Positions 15,317-52,704 of a stretch of DNA of 64,000 nt are shown here, one piece after another. Every line of letters starts with the position of its first letter. The stretch's first letter is position 1. This stretch comes from Apostichopus japonicus (taxonomy: Eukaryota > Echinodermata > Holothuroidea > Aspidochirotida > Stichopodidae). A program made the translations under genes and the position numbers. The notes below the pieces were generated by a model. That model did not search any database and was not told the origin of the DNA. It saw nothing but the letters and a program-made list of their open reading frames with translations. Location of the stretch: NCBI RefSeq assembly GCF_037975245.1, contig NC_092562.1, forward strand, positions 22,275,054-22,339,053, given 5' to 3'.

Positions 15317-15384
<68 letters not shown>

Positions 15385-15397: not shown

Positions 15398-15473
<76 letters not shown>

Positions 15474-15711: not shown

Positions 15712-18620
15712 TTTTTTGAGGCATTCCTTGCACGATACAATTAAAAAATGAACAACTCAATGATTTCTACAAATTAGCCAGCACATAAGGAAGTTCCTGT
15801 GTCACAGTCATCGAACTTGACAGCTAACACCTCGAAATCAGTGGACCTCTTGCTTCAGTACCCTTGAATACAGTTGAACTGCCTAACATAACAGTTGCAG
15901 GTGTTGATTATCACGAGGCATTGAAATATCAAAGAAAGAAACATAAAAGCACCACGCTGAGGGGAAAACACTCTGAAGACTGAAATCGGTACCTTTTGTC
16001 ATTTCTTTTTTCTTTTTTTTTATGACAAACAGGTTACCATATGCGAAATATCAAAAAAGCAACCTACTTAAGGTTAACTATGTATAGACGTTAATGGACA
16101 AGAAAATACAAGCCACCCTCATTGGTTAAACATAAGTCTGCTCTCAAAGTTATAATATATGCTCTCCTTTCCACGTAGCAACAGTTATATACCTTCCCAA
16201 CACATTGAACAAGTATAATGTAAGAACAAAATTTGCCCGCTAGCTAAGACAAACACATACATATATAGGCAAATTGGTAAAAAAAAAACCTACTATGTAA
16301 ACTCGTGCTTAAGAATTATCAAAGATATTTGTACATAGACCAAACCCTGCTGTCTTAAAATTCAACCATGTTGGAACGTTTGCAGCAGTCCAGTCGTGAC
16401 GTTACAGAAATTACATGACCTTGGTGAAACTGTCCTTTTGATGTAGCTTTTTCTAAAATCCAATTGCAATGCTTTGAAAGAGTCTTCTTCATTTCCTTTA
16501 TTCTTCTCATTATCATTTAGTAAGCACCATATATTAAGATTTGACCTTACAATACAGGGTGATATAAAACAGTTAGGTTTCTTCTTCTGTTCTAAAAAAT
16601 CAGTACCACAGAACCTCAATATTTGTTCCCTATCCAAACCTTCAAATGACGAAATTTGTCAAAATGACGTGATGTAGACTGATCTACGATAGCTCGGTAC
16701 TGTCATGTATGGATTATACTTGTAATCTGACATACCGCCCTCTACTAATATTGTTCTTACAGCCTGGAGAGGGGGTGACTAACAACAGTCTGATCTTAAG
16801 AGTCTTGTTAACCTTTTGTGACATATTTTGGTAATTGTTTGTTTTCCATAGCAATTAAATCTTAACTCAACTTGAAGTAGGGTAGCGTGATTTCAAATGT
16901 ACTGTAGTTCTAACAACTGAAAAGTCATAATAATGTTACATTGCAGAGCTCGGTCGGACCCATTACTATCTGGTAACACTTTTCATTAAGCTTTATCACC
17001 TCAACTGTTTTTGTTCTTCAATGTATAAAAGTACATAATATACCCAGATTAAACTTTCAAGATCTTTCTTTTCGCTAATTTTACAGTTGCATTTATACAC
17101 AGGTTAATATTTGTAACCCATTTAAGGTCCGACAAATAAACTTAATTTTATGTAGGCTGTATCATAACAGGCATAGAACGGTACCAATATTTGCAAACAT
17201 ACCTCTACAATGTGTTAGTTCAACGTCTTAAATGTACCATAAGAGAACCCAAAATGCTACACATGCAATGTAATGGGTCATTATAACAGCCAATCAATGA
17301 AAGTAACGTTTTGATCATTAACTGGCCGGGTTTTCGATCGTTTTAATGTGACCTTTTGACATTGACCTGTAAAAATCGAGCTACACAAAATGTATGGTCA
17401 ACAATTCAATTTTACCCTGATTGAAGTAGATGCACAAAAGAAAAGTATTTTCACCGCTTCATATCATACGGTAATTTTCCCCTCACTTTAAGCTATATAT
17501 TTACTTCCCAACGTAATACAATACATGGTCATATAGCATTCGTCAAGAGACACGTAGTAGATGCACAATTTGAGACGCTTCTTTCAAAAACCTATTCTCC
17601 AAATTTGTAGTTCCACAATTGTTTCTTTGCTGTTTTAATTAAGTTAATCACCAAGCTCATACAGTAAGATGATAGAAGTCATGGGGAGCTACCACTGTGG
17701 ACTAAACTACATAGACAAAATGTGCTAACCAAGATCCAAGACGTAAACAATACGTCACGGATATAGTAAAAAAAAACTGAAAATCTGAATATGCGTTCAC
17801 AAGTGCACAACAGTTCCGAGATATGCGCAAGTTTCGTGTTCGCCTAACACTGATAGCACAGTGACACTGCACTCAGCTTGTAGAAACAACTCAAGAAAAA
17901 CACAACTGCAAACGGTGGTAGTGTATGCTCTATACTGATCTATAACTCTCATTTTCTCATCTGTCACAGAGACATATGACATTCCTTAGTGTACAGATTA
18001 CATATAGAATACAATCTATACTTAGTATTACTTAGGATTACATAGGCTTAGTATTCTTAGGATTACTTACATAGTGACTTTCTATTTACCCAGTATCATA
18101 GGTATAGTAAATATTAACTATAGGCTACCCTGGATAAGGCTTTGGCTAATATGATTCACATCCATATACCCTACATCCCGTCCCTTGAAGGATGCACCTA
18201 CCATATTACCATCAGTTTCAAGTGATAAAGCACAAGTGTCTCATTCCTGATTTTGTACAGTTGCACCTGGCTAATATCATTCTCCGATAGGATAGATCAG
18301 GTATCTACAATCAATACATATGGAGATCGTTGTCCTTTAAATAAACTAGTGATTCAACAGTACTCTCTAGATACCATGATACCATATACATACGCGATAA
18401 TGCAAAATAACCTGTAGCATAATATTATTGTGATATGCGTATGATTATTGTTCTCTGAAACAACAATCAAGGTATAGTGGATACTTATATCAAATTACCA
18501 GTATACCCCCCCCCCCAAAAGAAAACACATATATACTAATAAATACAACATCCAGCCCAATCCCTGGTGGTCTGTGTATACAGTGATATCTGAGCCGTAT
18601 GTATGTATCTTATGTATCTT

Positions 18621-24691: not shown

Positions 24692-26287
24692 ATGATTTGC
24701 ATCAAGTTGCTACAGATATTGATTTGCATCTTTATTGCAAATGCAGGTAAGTTTGAATTTAAATGCTGGGTGCTGGCAGGGCCAGGCAGTTAATTATGGG
24801 GTGGTCAATAAACCAAAGGGTTGGTGCATAGTTATTGTGTGGTTAGTCGTATTACACAGTAGTATTAAAAATGATTAAATGCATAAAAAATAAAAAATAA
24901 TGTTAAATATATTTATATAAAAGGATCACATTTATTTTAGTTTTCATTTGTTGTTTTGTATAATTTCAGAACGAATTCCCATCACCATGGTGACAACGCA
25001 TCCGTTTCAAGCTGAATCCAGGAATCCTTTTCCTGAGTATTATTGCTACTTGAGTTCCATGGATAAAGATGCTGTGGTTTCTTCCACAAGGGTGTTAGAG
25101 ACAAGAGCTAATAATGATAATAAAAATGTTAATAATAATCCAGCCCCACCCATGCCTGTCGTGCAACAGGGTGCTATGTATCCACCTGATAGCGCTGTGT
25201 ACAAGGTGACTCTTAATTTTGGGGGTACTTCTGCAAATGCTTTTGCCTACGGAACATTTTCCTGTGATGCTTCCAGATCTGGAAGAGCAGACAGCACTGT
25301 GTCCAACATTCTCATGAACTCAGAGTGTGAGTATTACTCTTGGTACACATGGTTTATGCAGCAGGGAATGATGTAGTCAACCAATTCTTTGTAGCATTTT
25401 GAAGGTTGTGCATTTTGTTTGTTCCAAATTAGTATGGCTTCAATGTACAGAAACCGGAAATGACAAAAAAGAGGGGCGAAGATTACCACCTAATATCATT
25501 TTGCATAAAGTTATTTAGAACGTACATGTTTCGATCAATTGTTGCTTAGTGGTTATAATTTTCCCTCTTGTCAATCATTATATAATTACTTGTTCATTTT
25601 CCTACTCAAATTTACTTCTCCAGTGCATAAAATGGTATGTAGTATTTTGTCTAAGGAATTTGACACAGTGATCAAAATATTTCTCCTTTGATAATTAGTT
25701 TTATGTCTGTATTTCTAGATCAATAAGAGACATTTTCAACTACTAGGCTGTCTGTAGATAATCCAAAATTCAAATTAAATTCAAATTAAACTGTAGTCTA
25801 TTTCCTTTCATTCCTCTCATTACCTGTCTCCTATTCATTTTGTACGTACACCGTACAGTACATCTAACTTTGCCTTAGAACTGGTAGCATCCCCAATGAC
25901 CGTCTCTTAAGGTCGGTGCCCTCCGAATCTACCACCATTCAGAAATGTCATAACACGTTTGTCCTCACAGTTCTACTGTGTACTAATGATCTTCTGTTTA
26001 TACAGCTTATACTTACCCAGAGGATGGTTTAGTTACGCAGACTGTAAACATGGATGACAGAGGTGTACAGATTAGAATGGATGGAGCACAAGATGTAAAC
26101 AGATGGCACAGAAATAATCTGATTGATATACTTGGAAATCGCAACTTCGATTTCACTGGAATGAACCTGATTCTCAACTTCAAGTTAAACATCAGTAAGA
26201 GCAAGGATGAAGGATTCTACCAAACCCTCAGTGGTTCTTTAAATAGACAAGACTCACGTCACGGTCTGAAGAGATTGATTGTCAGAA
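24692..26287 (+). CDS. Exons 1-3, right gene: signal peptide and N-terminal ligand-binding-type region
   Basis: Exon 1 encodes [18 protein letters not shown], a classic hydrophobic secretion signal of 18 residues, ending in phase 1. Exons 2 and 3 encode residues 19-231. Two cysteines stand out in exon 2 (YYCYLSS and GTFSCDA), spaced like the disulphide pair of an Ig-like domain, and exon 2 also has an Asn- and Pro-rich loop (NNNPAPP). Exon 3 is a well-formed beta-rich stretch with GVQIRM and GMNLILNF but no obvious cysteine pair. In Tie receptors the region before the EGF repeats is made of Ig-like domains, so two Ig-like folds are the likeliest reading. This is inferred from position and pattern, not from a clear family signature. 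Confidence 0.75.
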
Positions 26288-29200
26288 GTAAGTACAATAA
26301 CGTGTTGGTTTTGGACATTCTACAGTTGAGTAATGCATATTATTATCAGTTTATTGGTGTGAATTTTGAATAGTAGTAATTTTTATAATAATATCATCCA
26401 AAGCTGAGTCACAATTATGGGAGATAATGCATTTTGAGAAAAACTTGTCAAAAGGGTTGGACCCTTTCATTTCAGAAGTGATTGAGAAAATTTTTTTCAC
26501 AGAATTACAAAATATAATATTTAGTAAGGTACATTCTGAACATTTCTTTTCGAAAACCTCTGTAGCTCTTTTGGTGTCAGTTTATTTCACAAAAAGTTGC
26601 TATAGTTGATTAAAAAATACATGGTAGCTTAGTTGTGCCCAGTGAAGTTAAAAATATTTATAGGCTTGATAGTATTTTCATATTAATATTAATAATAATA
26701 ATTGCAAAGGGATCACCATTTAGTTCTCAATTAGCCAGATTCCCTGTGAACTCGCTCCCTCTGTCTATTAGAAATTCGATTTCTGTAGTTTAAGGTCCAA
26801 GTTATTATGTTTCTTTTTAATCAGGTTTTCTTAATATGTTATAGTGTAATCTTAGCTGTTTTGTAAGAAAAGGTTAAGATCGTTGCTCTTACAGAGTTGT
26901 ATTTGGCGCTGTATAAATTATGTATTCTTATTATTTGTTCTTAGTAGACTGTACCAGGGTAGAACTTAATAGCTGGTTTGTAACAAGTGACCATTTTCTA
27001 GATGTTTTCATTATATTTTACTGTTCTGTATAAAGTAAATGGTTTGTTACAATACATCTTTCTTAGGCTGTCCATCCAATCACTGGGCCCCTCCTACATG
27101 CTATGGTGTCTGTGACAATTGTTACAATGGAGGAATTTGTGATGATGAGACAGGGAGATGTATCTGTCCTCCGGGATTCATGGGAGCAAACTGTCTGACA
27201 GGTTTGTTTATGACTATGTCATGTTTACTTGTATTCTTTGATTGACAAGTTATCTTTCCTCGTTAATGATATGATCTGTAATGTCATGAGTCTGTTGTAT
27301 TTAGCTTTGGTTCTGATGTGCTTACGTTGCCTATGATGTGATGAAATGAAATTTCCTGATACCTAATCTCATTGTTGAGGCAGGCTATACCTGTCCCTCA
27401 TGGTAGTGAAATGTACAAGGTGTAGCCATGGTGCGAATTGACCTACTGTAGCTATCTTTGTACTTTGCAATAATATTATTGTGAAATGTCTTTCTATGGA
27501 AGTGTTAAAGATTACTTTCTGTTTAGATAATACTTTTTTTTTACCACTTATCATGTCATGTTGTAGATAATATTTTGTTCTGTTCATCCTCGGTGTATAA
27601 TGTTATCTGTCTTAAACGTGTTACCAATAATTTGTATATTCGCTGTGCTAAAAATGTGAAGGTTACACCATTACACCAAGCTTGTGGGTTTGATATTCTA
27701 TTCGGTACTGTATGTGCTTTGCATCAATACGGTAGTTAGTTTGATCGTAGTTAGCCTTTACTTTTTAAGTTACACAAATAAACGGAACTTTTGGCAAAAC
27801 TGAACTTTCCTTTGTTGTGTCATCACCTCTTCTTTTGCACAGCATGTAGTGATGATCAGTTTGGTCTGAGCTGTGAATTTCGATGTACCTCTGATGATTG
27901 TAAAGGTCTGCAATTTTGTCTCTTGGATCCATATGGCTGCAGGTGTGGTGCTGGATGGAAAGGCCTTGACTGTCTTACAGGTAGTCTCAGGGTTATACAT
28001 ATAGGAGTGGGGTGCCCCTTGGACCTCTAGGGCTTGAAATACACTAAACAGAACTTTACGAAAAAGTCCTCTTTTTGAAAAAGCATTCTGCAACGTTGTT
28101 CGAACAGCCACTCCAGTCGGTCCGCATTAAAATGAGGCGGTCCCATTCCATATTCTTTTTGAAAAAATGGTTAATGTACGCCCCTAAATAAGTTGTGACA
28201 GTGACATTCTTTACATGATAATAACATTCTGCAATGAATTCCGAACAATGCCATATAGGCAAGTATTGTGTTGAATCGTGCTGAAGTAACTAGTTCATAT
28301 TTTTATTAGGCGTGTCATTCGGTTATAACCGCTCAACTGTTTTATCTAGCTTGATTACTGACCATGCCAGGCTGTCACATTTATAAATGTTGATGTCCAG
28401 TTTACAGTAGGGTCTATCCTGTGGTACCTTGCCCTGGCTTGGAAAATCTTGAACTACTGATGTATATCTCCAGGAATCTGTTCTAACACTTCTGTTCTCA
28501 GATAAAAGTTAGAAAGCCTGAACGTTCCAATCCTAGCAAGATTTTCTTCAAAGGCAAAACAGATATAGACAAAAAGGATAGACGCTAAAGTGGAATAATG
28601 ACTAATGAAAGGAGTAGAAAATGACAGGACAGTGGATACGAGATAAAAGGTCAAAAAACGGTTCTCAAGATGAAAGGTTTAAGAAAATTTCTACCCAGCT
28701 CACTTTGTACCATGTTAAATTTGAAAAAAAAATAGGCTTCCAAATGACTCAATGATAAGTTCTTAAGTACATTCTGGTCTTATCTGCTCAAAAATACAGC
28801 CTGTGGATCTTCCAAATTTGGTGCCAGCTGTCTTCAAGAATGTAATTGTGATGGTACATGTGATAGGTTTACTGGTTCTTGCAGTGGAAGCTGTGAGTCA
28901 GGATGGGGAGGCTTCAACTGCCAAAGTAAGTTACGTAAGGTATCATATGTTTGTAAACATAAATATTATTGGAAAAACAAATTCTCATAGATGTTTCAGT
29001 CATTTCGTAACATTTATTTGGTATTGAATAATCATTCCATCAAGGAGGATAAAGCCTAGCAATTTCTTGTTGTAAATTTGATATACATGGGCGAAAAAGT
29101 GTCATAATATCACTTCTCTCCAAAGCAGGCGCGGCGGAACGGAAAAATTATTGGGAGGGGGGGGGGGGCTAATATGTGGAGACTATCTAAGCGGAGCGCC

Positions 29201-32200
29201 ACCATCGGTTGGCGCGGAGCGTACAAAATTTTTTTGGGTTTTTCAAACCCCCCAGATGACCGGAAACGGCACTTCCCGAATGTTTTATGCTGCGAATACC
29301 TAGCCCTAAAACATGGGCCTCAAGTCTGCAATTTCTCAGATTGCACGTAAAAATCTGTAAAAACATTGTAATTTTTATATTCGATGGTGTTTTAAGAGAG
29401 TAGCTATTACTCGACGTGTACTCGCAAAGACGTTTTTGAGTGTAGTAAATTACTACTTGCAATTAAATGCAATAATTACAAGGGCGTCGGAAGCTATTTT
29501 TGATTGGTACGGCGATTCAGAGTGTGGCCAACTATCTTAATTATCGGGGGACGTTTGGTAGGTTAAACTAATGGAGAAAATTTTGAAAATATGCCTCCCA
29601 GATTGCAGGAAATGGCACTTCCCGAGCTTGAAAACAAGACCCCTGCCATGCCAGAGTAGTCACATTTAGCCTATAGTTGCCGTCATTATTATTGAAAATT
29701 ATTGAAACATATACCTCCGAGATTTTTTTCCCCATTTTTTAGTCCTACTTTTTTTTTTGCGTCGTGAATATTGGTCCGGCGTTCGCCGGACCTGCCCGTA
29801 CCGGCTCCGACGCCCCTGAATTAAATAAATGTCATAAGAAAAAACAGAAAGCATTTCTTAATGTCAACAAATGGGTAATTCCAAAACCATGTGCAGTTGC
29901 CAACAAATTTCTATGACCTAGCACTGTCATCATGTCATGAATGCATGTACCCTATACAGTACAGGTGAAATGCTAATATTGTGTTTTTGTTCGTTTAATA
30001 ATTGATTGCGTTTAAACATAAAGCCATGTTCCACGCCTTGCGTAGTGTAAACGCAAATGTTGATGAGTGTAGCGTTTAGCTTATTACCCTCTTATTTAAA
30101 ACACTAATATTCGATAAGGCATGATACAGACAATCAATTATCATATTTAATTATTACACCTATATAGTATACGTGTGCATCGGACAGATCGACAAGTATG
30201 CATTAAAAAATGGGCAGATGCACGTTTCGGAGCCTTGGTAAATATTGGGGGGGGGGGGGCTTATCATGCATTTGCCCCCTCAACTTTTTCATTGGGGGGC
30301 TCAGCCCCCCCCCCCCCCCCCCCAAGCCCCCCCCCCCCCGGTTCCGCCGCCACTGCTCCAAAGTAGCCTAATAACACTTGACAATGAAAACTTAATAGCG
30401 CTTGTCGACTATGGATCATGTCCAGTTGTATCTGCAGTGATTTTTATTGTTTAATTGCATTATCAGAGTCCACCGGGTGTCAAATCACTAAAATTATTAA
30501 TGCATTCCTCATGACTGGTCCATCTGTATAACTCCAGATGGCCTTCTCAATTAACAGGATCATTCCATATGAATTGTTCATTGGTTAACCGTAATTATGT
30601 TCATTAATACGGCTTGTTAGCTGTTACATCTTCACAACATAAAATCAGAGATTTTAACCTTTGTCCGTGATTATATTCTGTTTCATCATGCATATGTCCT
30701 CTTTCACTTCAACCTACCCAGAGAAATATAAATTGTGCAGCAAAACCATATTCCAGTTAAGGTGATGTAGATCTTTCTTTTCTTCACTTAACAGTTCCAG
30801 ATGTTTGTCCAGTTGGGTACTATGGGCCTAACTGTACATCAATTTGTAACTGTAGAAATGGTGTCCAATGTGATACTCTGACAGGAGAATGTCCTAACCA
30901 GCAGTGTGGTCCAGGGTATGTGGTGCCCCCCGCGAGTGTGACTTGTCAAGGTGTGTTTCATGCAATATGTAAAGGATCTACTTCATATAACATTCTGTGG
31001 AGATTATTATTAATGTTTACAGCAAGTCAAGTAAAGGTTAGCCACATAAGTCTCATTTTTTTGTTAATTTATACAGAATGCCAGGGAGCCTACTTTGGTC
31101 AGTTGTGTCAGGAGGAGTGTCATTGTGCTGAGGAAGCTTGTAACAAGCTGAATGGTCAATGCTGTGGTCAGTGTAAGCCTCAGTGGGTGGATGCATCCCA
31201 GTGTCTAGTAGGTCAGTTGATCAGCTGGAGTTTTCATTCCTGTGTATAAAGTGCTCAAGTTTTTGCAATTCTTGTGTTTTATGCATGCAGTGATGTTGTA
31301 AAAGCAAGTCAGACGTGGAAAATTATGCATCATGTTATTTTATGAGCAGATCTTTACATATGCAAGTTAGTATATATTGTAGTTCTCAAGTGATAATTTA
31401 GCCATGCAGTGGAAGGCAAGAGACTATGAAACACTTGGAGTAGCAGTTGGAAACAACTATTGACAGAAATTGTCTTTAATGACCTACCAATCCTTCAAGC
31501 TTTCGAAGTCAGGTTTTGGTCGATGAGATGAATCTAACTTTACTTTGCATGTCTTTTTTTTTCTTTCAAGGCTTTGAAGAAGCCACTTCATCTAAGATAA
31601 ATCCTGGAACAAGTACTGATGTTATTTGTGTTCTTCAGGGTTCTAGTCTTCTGCGTGCTGGTTTATCGTTACATTTATCAAGAGAGGAAGCCCAACTAGT
31701 GAGCAATGGTATTCAAGAACTAACTGCCTTTTCCGTTGGAGATGTGTATACAGGAGAGTTTAGAGCAGATAATGTAACTGATAGAGACAAAGTCTTCTGT
31801 CTGGTCGTTGATCAAGAAGATGAAATTGTAGCTGTCCTGGGTACTACAGTGAATGAGTATGGTAAGTAGTAATGCACATCATGAACTATCTGCCCCAATT
31901 TAAAAATATAAAACTGTAACAAATCCAATGAATGTTATGATATAATTTATTCGCTTTTGATCAATTTCTGCTGCTGTATGATAGAATTGTAATCACCGCA
32001 AACTGTTGATCTGCTTTAATAAACTGATCTTGAGGACAAGCAAAGTTATCAAGTTATAAGTTATCAAGCAAAGTTCACACAAAGACACACTAAAATTCCA
32101 TAGCTAGAAATTTGACAAAGAAGTGGAAATTATGCATATATGAGAGTGTCACACTGGCATCTAACTTGGTATCTCAAAGAAGAATACTTGGGTGGATCTA

Positions 32201-35200
32201 CACTGATTATCAGGACACAATCTTATTGTTTTCAGAGGAGAGCAAAGTTCATCTCCATTTAGTCAGTAGATATCAAAATTGCATTTTTTGTAAAGTATAT
32301 TGTAACTAAATGCATCTGTATAAGCATGCACAGATTGAAAATTGTTTTGTTTGTTCTATCGATTGGCAAGATGAGACACCTAGTTCAGTTATATTCCTTG
32401 TCACAAATAATTTCTCCCAAGTATGACTATTGCCTACACATTGGACTACTTTAAACTGCCCATCTTTCTCATTTTCTATGATTTTTCGGCTTGTTCAATC
32501 ATTCCTCCATATTGTTACCATCCATTGTTAACCGTATTCATCTGAACAGTTTTTGAGCCCTTCTTATTTATCTATTGTCTTCCCCAGTTCTTCCTGTTTT
32601 GACTTCTCCACCCAGTCTTCTTCATGCTAATGTGTCTCTTATTGCAATCGAGTGGAGCGCCTGGGATGCAGTCAAAGATATGGGTGAGCCTCCCATAGTG
32701 GCTTACATCCCTTACTATAGGAAAATATCAACCAAGGAATGGATAGCAGGACCTATCAATAACACCTCTTTAACATTTACTGTTGTGAATCTTGACAGTG
32801 ATACACTGTATGTGTTTAGTGTAGCTGCTGTCAGGGAGGGTGAGAATGGTGAAGGCCCCAGAAGTCCAGAGGTCAGCTTCAGAACTCATTGTGATGGTAA
32901 GTACTAACCTCCTAATACTTGCATTGCAAATTTGAATATCTGTGGTGATATGACAACTGTTGTTTTACATATTGATTAGGCTCCAGGTATGTCTCATTAA
33001 ACATGTGCTATCGTGTAAGCTAGGCAGTCTCTGATATTTATAAAGCTATGGCAAAAAAATGTGAGGGTACTTATTGGTGGTTGTGATGAAGAATAAAAAT
33101 CATATATTTTAATGCAATATGATGTCGTAGAAAATGAAATTAATCAATTTCCATTAGAACTTTGACCACAAAGAAGTACAAATATATGAGTTATAAAAAT
33201 GGAACTGGATGCCTGGTGTTAAAAAAATCAATATGAATATATAATCAAAAGGGTAAAGATGATCCATGAGATGGTATAAATATGTGATATACAGAGTTAA
33301 TGAAAAGTGAGTCAGTCTCCAGCAGGGAGTTGATGGTGTATAACACTCTTTGATATTTAATTTTTAGTTGCAGAAATCAGCCCAGTTGATGTTGTTGCTT
33401 ATCTTGATGTCATAAGCAATGCTGTCAATGTTTCTTGGCAGGTTTGTAAATTTGTTTTAAATATATCAGTACACCGTTTTGCATATTTCTACAAAGACCT
33501 CAGCTAGATGGTTTGGCCCTCGGTGCAAAATTAACATTTTTGCAGTTTCATGTCACTTTCTGGATTAATATTAGGTTTAGTTACGCAGCAAGTGAGTATG
33601 TCAAAAAGTGATGAATAAATTATTTTAGTTTCAATTCCAAGTCGTTTTGTTGTGGCAGACAATGTACTATGTATAATGAATTTACCAGGCTGGAGGTTGT
33701 TTGATCATAAATTTAACATATTTTGGCATACTCAAACCTTCCCTTACTCCATGAAGTGAATCACAATTGGCACTCTGTGATGTCACACAGCTAGTTAATG
33801 TTAAAATGTTGTTTTTATAAGTTTATTATCTTCAATTTGATGGATTAGTCAAATGTGAACATTTGAAGTATCTGCTTGGCTGTCAGTGTTCTCTGTATTA
33901 AGAATTTCTTCAAAATGTAACACTTCTACTAACATATTATTTTCCTCTGTATATTAATCATGAAAATATTGTAAAGAAAAACAACTAAATTTTAGCTCAA
34001 TTGTCTGGATTTCATGCACTTGTAGGATGCATTCACGAAAATATCAACAAATTTGAAAACTCTGTATTTTTAAGTAAATAAAGTTTGTGGATGTGGGTAT
34101 GCAGCCAATACAGGTATATCATTGGCAAATTTCGTTTTAAAAAATGGTGTCTATTGATAATCAATTTGAAATTTGCAGTCACAATTTGTAGATAAAGAAC
34201 AATTTCTAAAACTAAACGATTTACATATTGTGAAACGTACATCAATTGTTGTAAAACTATGAATTAGAAAAATGTCTGTTAACTATCCTACTGTGAATGG
34301 TAGGATGTGGATTGAACGAATGCTTAGCAAATGTTATCATGATGTGATAAGTTTTACTATAAGTAGACAGTGCTCAACATCAATTTATTTCAACTTCCAA
34401 AAGTGTGTGATGTATTAATAGTTTTGTCCTTCATAGCTTCACTGACACTTAATACTGCGATTGTTCTTCGTGATGGTTTGGATTTCGATAGATTCCTGAG
34501 GATATCGTTTGCACCACTGGTATTTTATTCTTCAACATCTATGTGGAGGAAGTTGGCATTGCTGGGAATCCTAAACTACACAAAAGAATAGGTGATATTC
34601 GCTGGGCTATCCTCAAAAACCTGAAGAAAGGAAATTACACTTTCCTGGTTACCTTCACAATAGACACCGAGAGTGATTTCAGTGAGACTAGTGAGGTAAT
34701 ATCAATTGTGGAGGACTTGACAGGAACACCGGATGCAACCACTATTCCAGGCACTACAGGTATCTCATGGACATGCTTCTTCTTTTTTTCATAATGGTGT
34801 ATAGTATATAATGGGGGGCGTTGTGGTCAAGGTAGTGGACTGGTGATCTAAGGATTACAGGTTCAAGCCCTGACCAGATCATTGTGTTGTGTCCTTGGGC
34901 AAGGCACTTTATCTCCATTGCCTCTCTTCACCCAGGTGTATAAATGGGGACTTGCGAGGTAACTTGTAAATATAGTTGCGACGTGCGCCGGTTTGTGGCT
35001 GCACGCTATGGGAAGTCCCCTGTGGAACACGTGGTTGTGGTGCCCCAGGAGAGATTGATTGAATTGCTCACACTTTCGTGTGTAGGAGTGACAAGTTACC
35101 AATGACCATGGCTAAGTTGTCAAAGCGCTATGATCTCGATGTAGCAACGCTATATAAGTGTCTAATATGTATGTATGTATGATCAATTTGAAATTTAGAT

Positions 35201-44200: not shown

Positions 44201-47200
44201 TTGCACAGTTTGCATTACTCATATGTAATTGTCCAACTTGACCCCAATATTTGCAACTGGCAAAGCTGACAAAGCTGTTATGAATGGTGTAGCTCTGTTG
44301 TTTATTGGCTGATGAATATGTTGAAATATTTGATATTATTTTGCTCAAGTATTTATTCCCTTTGCAGACTATTGTTGTAATTGTGTGACTACCTAGTAGA
44401 GTGTGCGGTACTGTGGCACTACTATTATGTTATCTTTAATAACAGGTTCACTTTACTTCACTTCACCGTACTTTCGATCCAGCTAGAGTTCTACTGTGTA
44501 ATGTGACAGGAAACTGTCAGTACACTGCATTTTTTCTTAATTATTACAGATGAACATATGAGTTGATCAACTTGTGTCACATTTGTGTACCTCTCAGTAG
44601 TTTACTAATCGTCTTCAAAAGTTCCCCTGTGTAATGTGACATGTCAAGTACTATACCACATACACATATATAGCTTCAATGGCAATCTCTGTAGTTCAAA
44701 TCTATAGTAATATACCACATAGCTTCAATGACAATTTCTATAGTTCAAATCTATAGTAATATACCACATAGCTTCAAAGACAATCTGTGTAGTTCAAATC
44801 TATAGTACTATACCACATAGCTTCAATGACAATCTCTGTAGTTCATATCTATAGTAATATACCACATAGCTTCAATGACAATTTCTATAGTTCAAATCTA
44901 TAGTAATATACCACATAGCTTCAAAGACAATCTGTGTAGTTCAAATATATAGTACTATACCACATAGCTTCTATGACAATTTCTATAGTTCAAATCTATA
45001 GTAATATACCACATAGCTTCAATGACAGTATCTGAAGTAAATAGATCTATAGTACTATACCACATAGCTTCAATGACAATTTCTATAGTTCAAATCTATA
45101 GTACTATACCACATAGCTTCTATGACAATCTGTGTAGTTCAAATATATAGTACTATATCACATAGCTTCAATGACAATCTCTGTAGTTCAAATGCAGTGT
45201 CTCTAGTTAGTATTTGGTAATTAGGTGAACTGATATAGAAGAGTGTTTTTATTCATCAAAGTTTCTTTTATTGGTCTGCTATGACTTGTACCAATTATTG
45301 TCAAGATGCATTAAATTCTGCCTTCCTATGAGTCTAAGAGTTTAAATCATCTAGGAGCTATCTGTAGTAGCACAACGGTTCTATGAAAATTACATATCAA
45401 ACCGATCCACAAGCAACTTTAAGGTGTGCATACCTCGGTTGATGGAGCACTGCTGGGAAATGTAAACAGGAGGTTGCAGGTTCAAATCTGATTCTACTGT
45501 TGCCAATAATTTCTATGCTCTTCCAGCTTATGTTAGTTGGTATTTTACATGTCACTTTTGAAGAAACTTATTTCTTCTTGCATTTCCTTGCAGTTTGAAG
45601 AGTCTCGTGTGGTTCATCAATTTCACTTCATCTCCTGGCCTGACATGGGAACCCCTAAGCAACCAACCCCTTTAATTACATTCGCCCAACATGTCAAACA
45701 GATGCATGGTACTGAAGAGACAACACCAATGGTAGTCCACTGCAGGTGAGAAAAAAACCATGTTAAAGACATATATCTTTTAAAATAATAACTAATGAGC
45801 AAAATATTTAATTAGCATTTTGGTGTTGACTGTATCAATGGATGATGCTAATATCCATTATAAAAATCCTGAAACTACTGTTAAAGTTTTGCTTGCAATA
45901 TGGAGGAAAGGAGATTCTGTCTGAAAGTTACTGGGTCTTTCTTGAAACTTCTTACATACTTGGTTATCCCTCAGTCCCACTAAGAGGCACATATATTCAC
46001 ACCAGATAATAGGAAATCAGCAAGAAAAAAAAAACCCAGCTTAAATGAACTGCTTTAGCAATCAAGGTAAACAATTTGTTCCAAGATATTGACAAAATAA
46101 ATATTAGAGATTTCTCTTTGAACAAGGCAAATATTTAAAAAGTTCATACTGTACATCCATATTAATATAAAAAAAAATTGGAAATCATCTGGAAGGGATC
46201 TTACACACCTGTTATAGAGTCTTTACAATATCAAAAGAATAGGGTTGCCTTAGTAAGTTAAAGATAAATTTTGCACCAAATAGCATCTATATTACAATAC
46301 ACTATCCACCAAGGTTCCAACTTACAGGTTTGTAAGTTAGTACATTTATGGCATTGAAAGCTAAAGAGCACTAACTAGCTATGTACATCTTATAATGTAT
46401 GATAATAATTTCAATTTTCCTCTTTATTGTTGCTTTTTCTGGATATATTTTAATCATTTTGCATTGAATATGTAGGTCAGCTTGTTTGAAGATAATGTTA
46501 TTGGCATCAACTTCAAATTTATTTATGATTGTCGCTGCTCTTACAATAACTTCAAATGTCATGGAAGCAACTTTGTGAGATAGACACATATGAAAGGTTA
46601 TTATACCAAAATTTGACTGATGTTTTATTCTGTGGGATAAAATACCATTTCTTGTGTAAGCTCAAGTTAAATCACCATTATATAATAGTCCAACCTTAAC
46701 AACTTCTGAATGTTGGCATTTCACATGTTTTTTGTAATTCTTGATATATCACCTACATTTCTTTTCCATTATCCAAGCTATCTACATACTTGCATTAAAG
46801 TTAACATTTAAAGCATTCATTTTCCATGTGTTTCTCTTCCATTCAATTCTAGTGCTGGTGTTGGCAGAACAGGTACATTCATTGCCCTTTACAGTCTACT
46901 GGATGTTATTTTTACAGAGGAATATCTAAACGTCTTTAACTTTGTGGAGACGTTGAGAGAAAGCCGTATCAACATGGTACAGACATGGGTGAGCTGCAGT
47001 AAATATTGTTTTCAAATACCACTGAAGTAAAATACTCTCATAGATTTAAATAAATGTTAGGTTACGAATTGATAGGCTTCAAACAATATAGCATAAACTT
47101 TTACAAAACCATTTCACAAATTCAGGTCGCTATAGTGGTCAGATATTTACCTTGTAGGTATGTTTCAGTTGACGAAATTAGGATCAGAAACTTAAACACA

Positions 47201-50200
47201 TAAAGTATAAACAATGAATGAAAAAAGGAATAAACTAACTGTCCATTTACTTATTCATTTATTTATGGTTGTTTGCATACTGAGTTATACCTACAGTGTG
47301 TCATGGAATTTCTGTAATTCTATCTTTATCTTTTTGATGTACTGAAGGAAATGTTCAAGTCACATTTTTCTTTTTATTAATCTTAACCTCATTTAGATTA
47401 GTTTTGATAAATCATTGATTGATTTGCTATTCATTTATTTTATGATGTTGCTTTGACTACAGTATATTATTCTGTTTATTACTCTGTATCTTATATTTGT
47501 AATTCTTACTATAGTCCTGTGTAAAGTGTTTTGAGATATTCTTTTCTGTGAAGTGCTATATAAATTTATATATATATGATTAAAATATTATGATACCAAG
47601 ATATCAGATTTACCCAAATCTCTTCCCCCACCCCTTATAGAAGCAGTATGTATACCTCTACAAATGCCTGGTGGAAGCCTACCTTACCAATCAAACAGTA
47701 ACGACTAAACAGAAGATGACGCACCTCGCAGAAGACCTCAATCAGGAGGCGCCGAAGAAGGAATATGAGGTACGTAGGAAAAAGGAAAGGATCAACTGTT
47801 CCTTTTCAAGGGGATATAAAGTACGCATGTCAAGATGTTCCTTCGAGCACAATATTGAATCTGATTTTTCACCATTTATTCTTTAAATATGCCTTACAAA
47901 GTATACAAAGAGACTATAGTGGCACAACACTTGTTGTGTATCCCAAATTGGCAGCTTTTTGTTTTTTAATTTAGTTTTATTTACACACATTTAACTATCA
48001 AGTTGATGGCTTTTAGAATATCGTATCTGCATGATAGTGATAACTTGATATCAATCTCCTTATTCGCAATTTTGCAGGGACACATACATTGATACTTTAT
48101 GAAGAGATGCATCTTTTTTATTTCCCCTTTTTAATTCTTTATAAATAATTAATGTCACCTGCAGCTTTTGCAAGTCTTGGAGAAAGAAGATATGGTATAC
48201 ATTGATTACCTGAAGAAACAAGGTAAGCAGTACTATAAACCTTTCTGCATCTTGAAGTGATCTTTGCGCCAATCAATTTGGGAATAATTCTCTCTGAAAA
48301 TTAGTTAAATTTTTACATGTATTTGACTAATATTGCTATATATTTGTATCACTTTGTATTTTGTTTTTTGTTATGACAGCCAATGGAAGGAGACCCTTCT
48401 CTATCAGTGAAACAAGCTACAACCTAACGTTCTGCCTGGATGGCACTTTGCTGAAGGTATGCATACACTGAATGTCTATAGGACATTCTTCACTATGAGG
48501 AAATGTCCTGGTAAGATGGTACACTGGTATACTTAAAACGGGCCAGGAAAAGTTATCACAGTTTCAGACTGTCGAATACTGCAAGAATGATCAGGCTTGT
48601 TTTTAGGGTTTAGTAGTAATTTTTATCCTGCCCTATCTCTTCATCAGTTACAGCAAAGAACAGCATATGTACACAACTTGGTAGAACTACTGAACTAATA
48701 GATATGGTATTTCATGATGAAGATGTTTCTTAATTGCAACAATACTGCCATTCATAGAGGCTTGTGTGAGCTGGGAATATTTACTGTAGCACTTATACAT
48801 ACAAAGACTAGTATGGGATATATACTTTGGCTACTGGTAATTAGCATAGCAACAACTCACCCTTGTACATTTTGTCTCTTATAAGATAAACATTACCTAA
48901 CTGAGTGTGAGGTAGTGCCCATTAGGCTACCGATTATTTACGTAATGTGCATGTACTCTCTAGTATACTTTTGTTCTACTTGGCGTCCCATGTTCAGCGC
49001 TTGCGGTTTCGCTAAGTAAGCCCTGTTCGTTCTCTCCATATTCTATTCATTACGAAATCACCTTGCTTTACGTTCAACGGCAGCCATATTGTATATTACT
49101 ATTTTGTTCTCATTACCGTCATTTATTGAGAGATGTAGTTCATCAGTCAACATGTTAGAGTAGTTTACTCTTCTCTGGGACTAGATATTATCCACCGCCC
49201 TCTTACCATGCTTAAACATAACCCCCAATAAAGTTGCCACCACGTACAGAGAAGTACGGAATCTATTTGATTTGATTTGTTTTGTTTGTTCTTCCTTACT
49301 CTCTGTCATTACATGAGTAACCTTCAAGAATCTCAATAACTGTATATGATCTCCATTCGAAAAAAAAACAAAAAACTTTCAGAGTACTGTAATACTGCCA
49401 TTTATTTTCTGCAGTCTAACATGTATAACAAACTCCAATTTTACTTTGAACTAGCTGGTCGAATGCAAAGAGATGTGTTAAGTTTCATACATTTAGAACA
49501 ATTTATAGTTCAGTAAATGCTGTTATGTCATGCCAACTTCAATAAAGAAAAAATCTCATCTGCTTCCAATTTATTAATCATTTATCAAATCCTCCTTGAG
49601 CAGTGTCGGGGGAATTAAAAAAAAAAATAAAACTTTCAGGGTACTGAACTACTGCCATCTATTTTCTGCAGTCTTACATGTATAACAAACTCCAATTTTA
49701 CTTTGAACTAGCTGGTCGAATGCAAAGAGATGTGTTAAGTTTCATACATTTAGAACACTTTATATGATCAATAAATGCTGTTATGTCATGCCAACTTCAA
49801 TAAAGCAAAAATCTCATCTGCTTCCAATTTATTAATCATTTATCAAATCCTCCTTAAGCAGTGTCTGGGGAATTACTCACATAGGGTTAAGTAAACATAC
49901 ATGAATATTAAGTTAAACACAACAAACAGCAATGCTTTGGATGCAGGATAGGACACTAGACATTAATTACTGTACTATATAATGTATAAAACTGTTTCAT
50001 TTTCAATTCAACATTAGTTATATAATGTACAAAACTGTTACATTTTCTGTTACCTGTTAATTTCATGACCAGAGCTACAAAAAGAAGGATGCCTATGTAG
50101 CTACTAACTACCCACAAAATGGAGAAGTTGCAGGCTTTTGGAAACTTATCTATACCTGGAAGTGCCCTCTGATTGTTTCTTTGGACCAGCCAGATGACAA

Positions 50201-52704
50201 GGTTTGTGAATTTACATCTTTTTAAATAAGTTTCCCTGATTTGGCATATTTAGATTTGAGTTTTGATATGAAAAATCATAGCTACATTATCTGTTATTTA
50301 GATATCAAGTTCATTGGTACAATTTTAGCAGTAATAATAACATATTTTGTATCGATTATTAGAGTTTTAATTATTGTTATTAAATATAATTTTGTTTCTT
50401 CTCAGCCATGCTATTGGCCAGATAGTGGATCTGTGAAGTATTCTGTCTTTTCAATTGACTGTAAAGACACAGAAATCACACCAGATTTCACTATTCGTCG
50501 TTTCGAAGTCACACAGGGAAATGGAAAGGTTGGCATCTACTGCTTTTACAATTAATTTTGAGAGGAGTAGAGATAGGGTGTGAGTAGGGGGGGGGAGGGG
50601 GTTACCACATAAGAATAGGAAGCAGTATTAATAAGGAGTAGCTTGATACCACAACAACTCTTAATTAAGGTCAATTGAGAAAGTGACTCCATGACTTCTC
50701 CTGGACCTTGCTTCTAAGGTGATTATCTGCAAGGGTAAATCTGCAAGCCCCGCCCAACAGATCATGAGCCAATCAAATCACCCTCTTTTGTTTACGACCT
50801 TTACGACTAGGCTCACTTTCACTTTCACAGCTAGCCTGTCATAGGTCCCTGATCATCTTTCTATCATTCTTACTGCTGTAGCTTGTGAAATTGTGTCATT
50901 TCCTTCCATTGCAATGAATAAACAGGTGTTTTCAGACGTTTCCTCCATGGAATTGTAAAAAGTTGATGATAAGATTATAGGACTGCGTAAAATCTTGATC
51001 GAGCTGCATAAATGTGTAGACTATTTTCTTTACATTTGTGTAATGAACATGCTGACATGAACGTTCTCAGTGATTTTACGGTAAACAGTTTGCGTCATAA
51101 GGGCTACAGAAAATAAATTTCAGAACTTTCGATTGCGACAGCTTTCTCCATTAAACCCACTTGGTCAGAGTGCATTTAGAATGAGAAACATTGAATCTAC
51201 TTTGGAAGTTTGTTTTCCGAAATTCATCAGCAAACACATATTGAGACTTTAAAATCAATATGAAAATAAGTTACTTCAACATTTGAAAGTCGGGTTTAAT
51301 TGAGAATATTGTTTCAATTGAGCATGCAATGTAGTGACAAGTACGGTAGTACCATAATATTACTTGTTATTTAACTTAATTGAATTGCTATGATTATTTT
51401 GAACTTTTTTCCCTCCAGAATGCTGTCACTGTTCATCATTTACAATTGACATCTGGTCCGGCGAGAGGTGATTTTGATGCCTTCATGAAACTGATTAAGA
51501 GAGTTCAAAATCTTCAGATCATGGCTACCCTGGATGGACCCACTGTTGTACACTGTCTGTAAGTCAACAACTCTTGGTCTTCCTTGTAACCCTCCCTATT
51601 CAAAACCTTCACGTTTGCATTTCAAATTAGTCTACCACTGAATTATCTACAGTCTTGTATTAAGGCCTACATAGTTTTACATAGAGCTCTAGTATCAGTA
51701 TACTGGTGTTAATTACAGGTGGGCAAATCAAATTAAACAACATAGCTAGTATCAGTAAACTGGTGTTTATTACAGGTGGGCAGAACAAATTAACCTACCG
51801 AATCTTAAATAACTACACTCATTTCACATTCTTTACAAACATACCAGAATTGTATGCCCAGCAGAACAGTCGTTATAACATTGCCCATAGGTGAAAATTC
51901 AACATAGATTGAATAATTGTTTGATTCTGTATGTTTATGGGCTTTTTTTTTAAGTGTACTACAGATGATTTTAGGTGGCTTATTGATGCCTTAATTTGCA
52001 CAAGTTTGCTGAATTACATTCTATGTACATATATGAATAATGACCATCTAACTTTTTTCCTCCACTTTTGAAACATAATTTTGCTAAGCTCAACGACATG
52101 TTAGTGATCAGACCTTACACTACTTTATAGTCTTACCAAAGATGGATGTCAGAGGTACAAAAGTTCAGAGTTAAATGAAAGTTGATGCATTTGATTATAA
52201 CTTGTTATTTTTCAGGGACGACAGTGGGTTATGTGGGGTCTTTGTAGCCGTTCTGTTGGAGATTGAAAGATTCGAAGACACTGGAAATTTTGATGTTTTC
52301 AAAACAGTACGACAACTCAAAGAAACAAATGAAAGCATGCTCGACTCAGAGGTAGGGAATTTAGTTTTTATCTCTCAAGTTTGCCAACTGTTAATAATGT
52401 CCAAAAAATATGCAAACTTACAGTTTATGAAATATACAATATATCAACATGGTGTCATATACACAGCCCACTTAAGACAGTTTTGATCAAATTATCTGTC
52501 ACATTTAAGTCATGTTATATCCCCCAAACAGGGTGTCTAGCACTATCATGTTAACCCTATACCTTGAAACAATTTCATCTTAAGCTGTATGCATTGGGCA
52601 ATCGACAGTATTTTTATGTTTTTTCTTTTCAGATGGATTATGTTCTCTGTTACAAGATGCTTTATACTTACTTGCAGGGAAACAGCACTTACCAAAATAT
52701 TTGA
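24692..52704 (+). CDS. Receptor-type tyrosine phosphatase with Tie-like ectodomain (complete, 30 exons)
   Basis: A single-pass membrane receptor that should dephosphorylate phosphotyrosine at the cytoplasmic face of the plasma membrane. Exons: 24692-24746, 24970-25326, 26006-26287, 27067-27201, 27843-27980, 28800-28925, 30795-30950, 31077-31211, 31571-31861, 32588-32896, 33368-33441, 34501-34759, 36402-36510, 37482-37549, 39825-40090, 40531-40618, 40939-41015, 41964-42000, 42448-42545, 43492-43617, 45594-45745, 46853-46988, 47641-47769, 48165-48222, 48380-48456, 50073-50201, 50406-50528, 51419-51558, 52216-52351, 52633-52704. They sum to 4338 nt, giving 1445 residues plus TGA, with all phases consistent and GT/AG at every junction. 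The start is the ATG of a signal peptide with A at -3. The architecture is signal peptide, probable Ig-like N-terminus, EGF x5, Ig-like, FNIII x2, TM, D1 (active motifs), D2 (degenerate). The EGF modules match the Tie receptor pattern. A 5' untranslated exon cannot be excluded. Confidence 0.9.
26740..26940 (+). mobile_element. LINE 3' remnant in intron 3 of the right gene
   Basis: Counterpart of the 13004-13285 remnant: a short SLPLSIRN coding vestige and then a typical 3' tail containing GGCGCTGTATAAATTA. No intact frame remains. Confidence 0.5.
27067..31211 (+). CDS. Exons 4-8, right gene: five EGF-like modules of Tie type
   Basis: Each exon is phase 1-1 and encodes one cysteine-rich EGF-like module, residues about 232-461. 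Module 1 has [10 protein letters not shown]. Module 2 has FCLLDPYGC followed by GAGWKGLDC, a pattern I recognise from the second EGF repeat of vertebrate Tie1/Tie2. Module 3 ends in SGWGGFNC. Modules 4 and 5 ([10 protein letters not shown] and [10 protein letters not shown]) are additional to the three EGF repeats usual in Tie. Such modules form a stiff rod in the ectodomain. The symmetric phases mean single modules could be skipped without breaking frame. The intron between modules 3 and 4 carries a hAT-like insertion absent from the paralogue. Confidence 0.88.
29126..30355. mobile_element. Nonautonomous hAT-like DNA transposon with perfect 8-bp target duplication
   Basis: The ends are terminal inverted repeats: CAGGCGCGGCGGAACGG at the left and, read in reverse, CAGTGGCGGCGGAACCG at the right. 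The element is flanked on both sides by CTCCAAAG (29118-29125 and 30356-30363). An 8-bp target duplication and CAG...GGCGG ends are typical of hAT elements. The left paralogue has an empty site in the matching intron (near 10800). Inside are G and C homopolymer runs and a second CAAGGGCGTCGG...CCGACGCCCCTG inverted pair at 29479-29818, probably a nested related element. No transposase is encoded. Confidence 0.85.
31571..34759 (+). CDS. Exons 9-12, right gene: Ig-like module and two FNIII-like modules
   Basis: Exon 9 (residues about 462-558) reads as a beta-sandwich with a cysteine pair (DVICVLQ and KVFCLVV) and sits where Tie receptors have their third Ig domain. Exon 10 (559-661) is a fibronectin type III module: it begins [10 protein letters not shown], has the core tryptophan in IEWSAWD, and ends with [14 protein letters not shown], the tyrosine corner region. 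Exons 11 and 12 (662-772) form a second, more divergent FNIII-like module with VNVSWQ and a KKGNYTFLV strand. Exon 10 is phase 1-1, so it can be skipped in frame. The acceptor of exon 12 has a weak pyrimidine tract, so its start is somewhat less certain. Confidence 0.85.
34814..35180 (+). mobile_element. tRNA-derived SINE, family 2
   Basis: On the plus strand it has an A-box-like TGGTCAAGGTAGTGGACTGG and a B-box GGTTCAAGCCCTG about 35 nt later. The body includes CCTTGGGCAAGGCACTTTAT, a motif common in metazoan SINE bodies, and it ends with a CGCTATATAAG tail and (TATG)n. It sits in intron 12 of the right gene and is absent from the left arm. Confidence 0.78.
35226..35440 (-). mobile_element. 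tRNA-derived SINE, family 1, copy 2
   Basis: Same family as the copy at 18621, in the same orientation, inside intron 12 of the right gene. It interrupts sequence that is continuous in the left arm (near 6085), so it arrived after the duplication. The A-box has mutated (read on the plus strand as CACTGACCTAAGG). Confidence 0.78.
36060..36270 (-). mobile_element. tRNA-derived SINE, family 1, copy 3
   Basis: Third copy of the family, still within intron 12 and just upstream of the transmembrane exon. Its tail end abuts a TATG/TGTG microsatellite at 36022-36058. A-box and B-box are both recognisable on the minus strand. Confidence 0.8.
36402..36510 (+). CDS. Exon 13, right gene: transmembrane helix
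   Basis: The exon encodes [12 protein letters not shown] followed by an uninterrupted run of Val, Ile and Leu ([20 protein letters not shown]) and then FIIMR. This makes one membrane-spanning helix at about residues 785-807 with a basic stop-transfer residue on the cytoplasmic side, continued by RKRK from the next exon. The sequence is unrelated to the helix in the left paralogue, although exon order and splice phases (1 in, 2 out) are the same. Two tRNA-derived SINEs lie in the preceding intron and a third ends just upstream of this exon. Confidence 0.9.
37482..40090 (+). CDS. Exons 14-15, right gene: acidic juxtamembrane segment
   Basis: Exon 14 supplies the basic stop-transfer stretch [10 protein letters not shown]. 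Exon 15 encodes a long Glu/Asp/Lys-rich stretch (for example [12 protein letters not shown] and SDSEDKDHD), likely disordered. It ends with [14 protein letters not shown] and LEQEFS, the amphipathic helix and EF motif that precede D1 in most receptor tyrosine phosphatases. The left paralogue has a tyrosine-rich segment at the same position, so the two receptors should couple to different cytoplasmic partners. That coupling is an inference. Confidence 0.82.
40531..47769 (+). CDS. Exons 16-23, right gene: catalytic phosphatase domain D1
   Basis: Residues about 921-1201 form a full class I tyrosine phosphatase domain. Visible motifs in order: [16 protein letters not shown], the phosphotyrosine-recognition loop with Phe944 replacing the usual Tyr; [26 protein letters not shown]; the WPD loop WPDMGTP with general acid Asp1079; the signature [10 protein letters not shown] with nucleophile Cys1112 and Arg1118, split across exons 21 and 22; and the Q-loop QTWKQY. 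All residues essential for catalysis are present, so D1 is predicted to be active. The stretch after NAS reads HIMTPDEKK where most family members have YIDGYK; the alignment has no gap, so no exon is missing. Confidence 0.93.
44650..45195. repeat. Tandem repeat, 49-bp unit
   Basis: The motif CCACATAGCTTC recurs at 44715, 44764, 44813 and 44862 with exact 49-bp spacing, and continues to about 45190. There are about 11 units with a few substitutions, and one has a small insertion near 45030. It lies in intron 20 of the right gene, between exons of the catalytic domain. Confidence 0.9.
45424..45500 (+). mobile_element. tRNA-like SINE head fragment
   Basis: The sequence CCTCGGTTGATGGAGCACTG followed by GGTTGCAGGTTCAAATCTG has the spacing of the A- and B-boxes of a tRNA. 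It lies in intron 20 of the right gene with no clear body, so it is probably a fragment of a third SINE. It does not look like a functional tRNA gene, since the acceptor stem does not pair. Confidence 0.5.
47380..47580 (+). mobile_element. LINE/SINE-type 3' tail
   Basis: The stretch ends GTAAAGTGTTTTGAGATATT followed by GAAGTGCTATATAAATT and (TA)n. This is the usual 3' end of L2-like LINEs and the SINEs they mobilise. No head or coding part is evident. It lies in intron 22, shortly before exon 23 of the right gene. Confidence 0.45.
48165..52704 (+). CDS. Exons 24-30, right gene: degenerate phosphatase domain D2
   Basis: Residues about 1202-1445 follow the D2 layout of receptor phosphatases ([14 protein letters not shown], then [17 protein letters not shown], then CYWPDSG) but the catalytic elements are lost. 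The WPD loop is replaced by [11 protein letters not shown]. The signature reads HCLDDSGLCG, keeping Cys1376 but with Leu in place of the phosphate-binding Arg and Cys in place of Thr. In this family an inactive D2 commonly regulates D1 or binds partners, and that is the likely role here. The C-terminus is a short ...NSTYQNI tail ending at TGA 52702-52704. Confidence 0.9.
49376..49875. repeat. Direct tandem duplication, about 255-bp unit, two copies
   Basis: The stretch starting CTTTCAGAGTACTGTAATAC (49376) is repeated as CTTTCAGGGTACTGAACTAC (near 49633) and the following about 240 bp are nearly identical. The second copy differs by a handful of substitutions. It lies in intron 25 of the right gene and has no coding content. 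Confidence 0.85.

Follow-up and report, generated by a model that had tools for sequence, protein, structure and literature searches.

The gene that occupies positions 24692-52704 of the window (the whole stretch of 64,000 nucleotides analysed here, C2:22275054-22339053) probably encodes a receptor of mixed ancestry. In the reading that we favour, with some reserve, a head derived from a Tie receptor has been placed on the FN3 modules, transmembrane segment and tandem PTP domains of a receptor phosphatase, and the product has been amplified into a family whose active and dead tails share a ligand. The window gene appears, from searches of the genome, to be one member of a family of dozens.

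Architecture of the predicted gene

The gene model consists of 30 exons with AG/GT borders, all joined in phase, and predicts a protein of 1446 residues. Splice borders were picked by hand around reading-frame anchors, and the exon count of the earlier note was known beforehand, so that the reconstruction was not fully blind; the rebuilt model keeps phase throughout 24692-52704, as the note had stated. The order of modules is signal peptide, two N-terminal modules, EGF1-5, a module that is Ig-like by position, two FN3 modules, transmembrane segment, juxtamembrane region, and the phosphatase domains D1 and D2. Pfam recognizes fn3 (2.9e-6), EGF_2 (5.1e-5) and Y_phosphatase (5.3e-109, in two stretches) in the predicted protein. 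It calls one EGF and one fn3 module, and the remaining EGF and FN3 modules were assigned by eye, from cysteine spacing, and by comparison with the PDB. The parts of the gene are as follows.

24692..24746 (+): exon 1, start codon and hydrophobic signal peptide; 16 of 18 residues are the same as in exon 1 of the partner gene described below
24970..25326 (+): exon 2, N-terminal module at the position of Tie Ig1, assigned by position only (model pLDDT 63.7)
26006..26287 (+): exon 3, module at the position of Tie Ig2, with an RLIVR end like that of Tie2 Ig2 (PDB alignment)
27067..27201 (+): exon 4, EGF1, Tie type (Pfam, PDB and own-genome searches)
27843..27980 (+): exon 5, EGF2, Tie type, DPYGC...GWKGLDC (PDB alignment)
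28800..28925 (+): exon 6, EGF3, Tie type (PDB alignment)
30795..31211 (+): exons 7 (30795-30950) and 8 (31077-31211), EGF4 and EGF5, additional to the three of Tie (by eye)
31571..31861 (+): exon 9, module that takes the place of Tie Ig3; its Ig-like assignment is purely positional
32588..34759 (+): exons 10 (32588-32896), 11 (33374-33441) and 12 (34492-34759, weak acceptor), two FN3 modules (Pfam, searches)
36402..36510 (+): exon 13, transmembrane segment (from the sequence, by eye)
37482..40090 (+): exons 14 (37482-37549; alternative acceptor 37422) and 15 (39825-40090), juxtamembrane region (splice borders)
40531..47769 (+): exons 16-23, PTP domain D1, with intact WPD, HCxxGxxR and Q motifs (Pfam, searches)
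48165..52704 (+): exons 24-30, PTP domain D2, with the degenerate P-loop HCLDDSGLCG; last exon 52633-52704 (Pfam, searches)

The window also contains a tandem repeat (44627-45193) within the intron between exons 20 and 21, and a direct repeat of 2.5 kb (53270-55797 and 58191-60714, 99.4% identical) that points to a recent duplication or a mobile element. A search of the window against Rfam gave no match at the gathering score.

Tie-type head and FN3 modules

When the EGF block was compared with the PDB (phmmer), the Tie2 entries 2gy5, 9lv4 and 4k0v matched at 4e-36 to 8e-36, in an alignment that runs from the last Ig2 residues (RLIVR) to EGF3. The next entry, 6u11, was found at 5.4e-6, and SCARF1 at 0.025 and 0.06. 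The earlier note had named a better score for MEGF/SREC-type proteins as a reason to give up the Tie assignment; in the PDB, which contains few MEGF-type proteins, the comparison falls out for Tie (4e-36 for Tie2 versus 0.025 for SCARF1), and the DPYGC...GWKGLDC pattern that the note assigned to Tie EGF2 is present in exon 5.

Apart from the last Ig2 residues, exons 2 and 3 have no detectable similarity to Tie Ig1 and Ig2. The predicted fold of exon 2 (pLDDT 63.7) has no PDB match at E<=0.001, and the fold model of exon 3 has a pLDDT of 49.5. At a paralogue at C2:2.66 Mb the Tie2 match begins about 30 residues earlier, inside Ig2. In Tie2, the counterpart of exons 2 and 3 is the ligand-binding part. 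Given the little likeness to Tie in these exons, the ligand may therefore differ from that of Tie. Judged by sequence comparison, the demonstrably Tie-like part of the ectodomain is the end of Ig2 and EGF1-3 only.

The membrane-proximal part points elsewhere. Exons 9-12 match titin, DCC, PTPRM, Dscam, PTPRF and neogenin chains at 8e-10 to 4e-4, and none of their 15 PDB matches is a Tie entry. Within the genome, the FN3 module of exon 10 is 44-48% identical to those at eight FN3-PTP loci of C2, matched up by eye, for which no Tie EGF1 was scored, and 23-31% identical at both Tie kinase loci discussed below. The origin of the module is made less clear-cut by the places at C2 28.5-31.3 Mb, since their 31-36% identity is near the values for the Tie kinase loci. 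On balance, the FN3 modules look closer to those of receptor phosphatases and guidance receptors than to those of Tie, and the term Tie ectodomain is therefore valid for the distal part only. The idea that the whole ectodomain is that of Tie was dropped, because the FN3 modules match other receptors. Of the Tie module order proposed earlier, the succession of Ig2 end and EGF1-3 stands, whereas the gene has five EGFs and two FN3s, the FN3s are not Tie-like, and the Ig modules are placed by position.

Phosphatase tail

The D1-D2 region matches PTPRA (2.6e-122), LAR (4e-111) and also PTPRE. The PF00102 domain lies behind a transmembrane segment recognized by eye, which is the arrangement of a receptor PTP. 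The description of the cytoplasmic half as a tandem phosphatase with intact D1 holds: there are two Y_phosphatase stretches, the WPD, HCxxGxxR and Q motifs of D1 are all present, and D2 is degenerate. By its motifs, D1 is catalytically plausible as a phosphatase, and D2 is expected to be inactive in view of its HCLDDSGLCG P-loop. A MAM domain, the mark of the R2B phosphatases PTPRM/K/T/U, had no Pfam match at 0.1.

A head-to-head partner with a dead tail

The window contains a second gene of the same kind on the minus strand, arranged head to head with the first. Its parts, and the region of the window gene that is most similar to it, are listed here.

6145..16573 (-): head half of the partner and upstream DNA, with exon 1 at 15711-15654 to exon 12 at 6457-6205 (genomic alignment)
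1..3862 (-): start of the partner's tail, read by eye as transmembrane segment, juxtamembrane region and the beginning of D1; its remainder lies to the left of the window
32650..33399 (+): conversion-like tract in the window gene, with about 11 differences to the partner in 740 aligned bases (98.5% identical)

The head DNA of the partner is 83-90% identical to 23836-34803, introns included, except for about 1.2 kb of intron 6. Further out, to 23114, the identity is 69%; there is an extra patch at 35451-35629, and the alignment ends before the transmembrane exon. In an exon-by-exon comparison of 749 codons, the heads have 91.1% identity (dS 0.098, dN 0.045, dN/dS 0.46), whereas the tails are 36% identical in the portion that could be stitched together (114 of 316 residues). 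The dN/dS value and the Tie2 match of the head (4e-36) indicate that the gene model is more than a chance finding. In D1 of the partner all three catalytic motifs are lost (WPY, HCSDGAGATG and no Q), D2 has RDGVGHSG, and PF00102 is still matched at 1.2e-51. A 10-bp deletion in exon 10, near 8290, breaks the frame, and the partner may be a pseudogene in this haplotype.

Outside the conversion-like tract, window gene and partner differ at about 712 of 7951 bases (about 9%). The binomial tail for the tract is 6.5e-5 against a background of 4%, for windows chosen after inspection. The near-identity of the tract suggests a recent gene conversion between the two genes. Near-identical heads on differing tails are found in this pair, of which the dead partner is frameshifted, and in the neighbours at C2:23.39 and 23.45 Mb. 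Besides the partner, none of the compared loci shares more than about 100 bp of the EGF1 exon with the window gene.

Recurrence of the arrangement in the genome

The genome searched comprises 671.6 Mb in 35 contigs. One of these, C29 (31219 bases), contains pieces of a second mitochondrial COX1 besides that of C35 and is probably an assembly product. In COX1 of C35, AAA stands at seven positions that the invertebrate code would translate as Lys and that are otherwise conserved as Asn, which fits the echinoderm code; if C35 is circular, the large rRNA immediately precedes COX1 on the same strand, which is the order of echinoids and holothuroids. The search with EGF1-3 returned 899 candidates, of which 150 were scored. 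We used those 99 rows outside C4 in which EGF1 is covered; the 51 rows left out are EGF2 or EGF3 rows and the C4 rows. Among the matches listed, the 99 places are distributed over C2 (76), C16 (15), C19 (5), and C6, C12 and C18 (one each).

A tail was assigned to an EGF1 place if it lay within 60 kb downstream and before the next EGF1, using the PTP profile places and eight pattern places. By this rule, a PTP is next downstream on the same strand at no fewer than 60 of the 99 places, compared with 2 of 99 in the opposite-strand control over the downstream 60 kb. With a single PTP list the count is 48 of 99, compared with 8 for opposite-strand places up to 60 kb away in both directions. A tyrosine-kinase place follows at 3 of 99 (from a chosen list of 11 places, nine from the search with the Tie2 kinase and two on C19), and 36 of 99 have neither a PTP nor a kinase among the matches listed. 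The latter could therefore be head-only genes or pseudogenes.

From 130 FN3 rows, 29 active and 28 dead places and the PTP profile places, FN3 follows EGF1 at a minimum of 64 of the 99 places, and the full order EGF1, FN3, PTP is found at 50 or more, with an opposite-strand control of 0 of 99. When part of the rows was used (20 of 29 active, 18 of 28 dead), the numbers were 63 and 49 of 99. The recurrence of this order argues strongly against a chimera of neighbouring genes, as the earlier note had argued from exon phase.

Active and dead members

The loops were typed by DNA patterns. For the active loop (AGxGRTGTF), 29 exact matches were found across the genome and none in the reversed control. 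The pattern for the dead loop (GxG[A/S]TGTF, with the catalytic Arg lost) has 98 matches and 6 in the reversed control. Of the 98, we dropped 70 that lie in a repeat array and kept 28. The array (C7:255589-433026), in which the matches are mostly about 2 kb apart, is apparently unrelated to the family.

The loop that follows the 99 EGF1 places is active in 16 cases and dead in 18, where dead loops are those recognized by one DNA pattern. Another 25 places have an untyped PTP (14 of them on C16), and 40 have none in those lists. As a control, active or dead places on the opposite strand within 60 kb were found for 7 of the 99. Conversely, 13 of the 29 active and 6 of the 28 dead loops have no scored EGF1 before them. 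The two kinds are intermingled: from 23.30 to 23.79 Mb on C2 they follow one another as active, dead, active, active, dead, active, and the active locus at 23.45 Mb is 82% identical to the dead one at 23.39 Mb over 1.8 kb around EGF1.

With so many members carrying dead loops, the family is not simply an off-switch. The proposal that a Tie-type sensor is wired to a phosphatase thus needs to be qualified. The EGF block is joined to a PTP, and the junction recurs, but many family members would not be able to dephosphorylate.

Putative Tie-type kinases

Pfam finds no kinase domain in the translated gene, which hence lacks the cytoplasmic kinase of a Tie receptor, and none of the matches listed in the genome search for kinases lies inside the window. 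The earlier statement that there are no kinase exons agrees with these searches for gene and window. The best-scoring tyrosine-kinase match listed, C2:22340603-22341424 (-), is located 1.5 kb past the right end of the window, on the strand opposite to the gene. It is full length in a single open frame of 384 residues, and there is a similar one at C2:2320878.

The absence of a Tie kinase from the genome as a whole, which we considered, could not be upheld, since two loci of C2 pair Tie EGF1-3 with stretches like the Tie2 kinase. In the first, EGF1-3 are at C2:2463166-2466493 (+) and the kinase-like stretches at 2484227-2487504 (+); in the second, EGF1-3 are at C2:2561848-2555587 (-) and the kinase-like stretches at 2541397-2537857 (-). 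The stretches are on the same strand as EGF1, about 20 kb after it, and have 43-74% identity to a hand-typed Tie2 kinase query; some of them span a stop. We infer that head and kinase form one gene at each of the two loci. Tie-type kinase loci thus appear to coexist with Tie-headed phosphatases, one of which (EGF1 at C2:2658978, PTP at 2643649, (-)) is about 100 kb away.

A Tie-type block on C12 (6994001-7024000) is matched best by the EGF heads of these two loci (2.463 Mb (+) and 2.561 Mb (-)). It comprises three Tie-type EGFs, which match Tie2 at 1.3e-35, together with one Ig-like and numerous FN3 exons, and is surrounded by frames that resemble retroelements. Its 30 kb showed no kinase motif, and no kinase is nearby among the matches listed.

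A kinase on C19 (9.13 Mb) was rejected as a Tie kinase: with a query stitched from exons, an EGFR entry leads in the PDB, followed by RET and FGFR chains. It has HGDLAARN in place of the usual HRDLAARN (9.135 Mb). FN3-like and transmembrane frames precede it, and at roughly 20 kb upstream there is a Tie-type EGF1 that may be unconnected with it. Arrays of tyrosine-kinase exons are present on C17 (13.17-13.61 Mb), C18 (8.69-8.85 and 13.97-14.26 Mb), C19 (8.83-9.14 Mb) and C21 (13.30-13.48 Mb).

Proposed origin and mode of action

According to the reading favoured here, the product would be a single-pass receptor-type tyrosine phosphatase. Its distal head (Ig2 end and EGF1-3) would descend from a Tie receptor, and its FN3 modules, its transmembrane segment and both of its PTP domains from a receptor phosphatase. 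The homology of head and tail is seen in the comparisons above, from which the direction of descent is a further step. The presence of a Tie-headed PTP some 100 kb from the C2 Tie kinase loci suggests that a Tie head was probably copied locally onto a receptor phosphatase near these loci, and that the product was then amplified.

The expected task of D1 is the dephosphorylation of tyrosines on neighbouring receptors or adaptors; D2 would have a regulatory function and no catalytic one. A ligand bound to the head would shift or cluster D1 relative to its substrates. Dead-tailed receptors with near-identical heads would take up the same ligand but not dephosphorylate, and could act as decoys, traps or docking platforms. 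Since the dead members would compete for the same ligand, the balance of active and dead receptors would then set the response. Gene conversion, for which there is one probable tract, may keep the heads alike, while the tails differ.

As for the class of ligand, secreted proteins with a fibrinogen domain, as for vertebrate Tie2, are a guess that is based here on the size of the family. A genome search for Fibrinogen_C (PF00147) gave 2731 first-look candidates, of which 150 were scored; all of those listed are over the cut-off, and most listed rows fall into clusters on C9.

A wider and decidedly tentative proposal would place one Tie-type head on kinase, active-phosphatase and dead-phosphatase tails alike. 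The genes would then form a clustered germline repertoire in which conversion moves heads, with fibrinogen-domain proteins as possible ligands. Such a system would provide paired recognition by dephosphorylation, possibly with several heads per tail in a number of the clusters. An immune role is suggested by the copy number, together with reports of Tie in echinoderm coelomocytes. SpTie1/2 of the sea urchin has been reported from the axial organ and from coelomocytes (PMC6494969). On starfish coelomocytes, PMC13409769 reports a receptor phosphatase as well as a receptor like Tie-2, where both names come from annotation. The occurrence of Tie and phosphatase in such reports makes a role in immune cells directly testable.

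Alternative explanations

An unlikely alternative is that the gene encodes a developmental phosphatase with no immune or paired role, a Tie antagonist that acts on Tie kinases or junction proteins through contacts between heads, and that the dead copies are decaying. VE-PTP is described as opposing Tie2 in vertebrates, Tie-type kinase loci are on the same contig as the window gene, and the dead partner in the window is frameshifted. However, dozens of copies with alternating active and dead tails would be unusual for such an antagonist, and the P-loop exons are open at three other dead loci (C18, C19:8.13 Mb and C2:16.3 Mb).

A cassette cluster, in which heads and tails are separate units and several alternative heads are spliced to one shared phosphatase tail, is quite improbable. 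Clustered protocadherins are organized in this manner, with alternative heads spliced to a shared tail. Among the matches listed, groups of two to four EGF1 places, 10-41 kb apart, repeatedly come before one PTP place in parts of the region 29.7-31.3 Mb of C2. The active loop at C2:23.015 Mb has five EGF1 places ahead of it, every one of them with a separate FN3 exon. Such groups could represent alternative heads, repeated domains in one gene, or heads with unscored tails. The window locus, in contrast, has one head and then one tail, joined in phase, and among the matches listed heads and tails alternate one to one at C2 23.3-23.8 Mb, at 26.3-26.6 Mb and at five places within 29.7-31.3 Mb. 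The regions C2:23.05-23.22 and 27.6-27.7 Mb likewise have several heads, and across all such regions there are two to five EGF1 places, 10-55 kb apart, per listed PTP.

It is very improbable that the EGF block is of MEGF/SREC type and its likeness to Tie convergent. All of these are short cysteine-rich modules, a PEAR1-like EGF model of Pfam matches the partner gene weakly (0.042), and a multi-EGF frame on C4 scored higher in the own-genome search (56 bits) than the one EGF1 row (51 bits) of the Tie-type locus on C12, which is split by exon. On the other side, Tie2 reaches 127.8 bits and any other protein at most 28.3 bits in the PDB, which is poor in MEGF-type proteins. That two adjacent genes were joined by an error of assembly or prediction is scarcely credible, even though the model was predicted from DNA alone and is uncertain at two splice acceptors (exons 12 and 14), given that the same order occurs at 50 or more of the 99 places, on several contigs, and that phase is kept over 30 exons. 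A Tie-derived head on a receptor phosphatase, amplified with active and dead tails, remains our preferred explanation.

Comparison with known systems

Receptor phosphatases, Tie receptors and pseudophosphatases are already known. New, as far as the literature was searched, is that a receptor phosphatase carries a Tie-type head and belongs to a large family with both active and dead members. No description of such a combination was found among titles and the beginnings of abstracts, in a coverage that leaves subscription papers mostly outside, and a term search of PMC11310086 found no mention of a tyrosine phosphatase.

The sign of a receptor signal is usually set by the tail that the receptor carries. 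One head family on kinase, phosphatase and dead-phosphatase tails would be a natural experiment on the evolution of this sign. It bears on the question of whether, in an animal that lacks lymphocytes, phosphatases can provide the inhibitory side of paired receptors. The paired immune receptors KIR, PIR and SIRP have near-identical clustered heads, tails of differing signalling power, and gene conversion. The likeness to them is drawn from the genes alone, and the tails here are active or dead phosphatases instead of ITIM or charged transmembrane tails.

VE-PTP (PTPRB) is similar in being a receptor phosphatase, and consists of FN3 repeats and one PTP domain, without a Tie head. PTPRM is among the nearest chains for the FN3 modules, and differs by its MAM domain, which was not found in the window gene. 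With the tandem receptor PTPs (PTPRA/PTPRE and the LAR group), the window gene shares the transmembrane segment, intact D1 and degenerate D2; it is set apart from them by the Tie-type head, and its family by the good share of copies with a dead D1. Tie1 and Tie2 (TEK; SpTie1/2 in the sea urchin) provide the closest counterpart of the head, in the Ig2 end and EGF1-3 and, by position, in the succession of modules as far as the Ig-like one that follows the EGFs. Compared to Tie1 and Tie2, the window gene has five EGFs instead of three, two FN3s instead of three, a phosphatase in the place of the kinase, and many copies in the genome.
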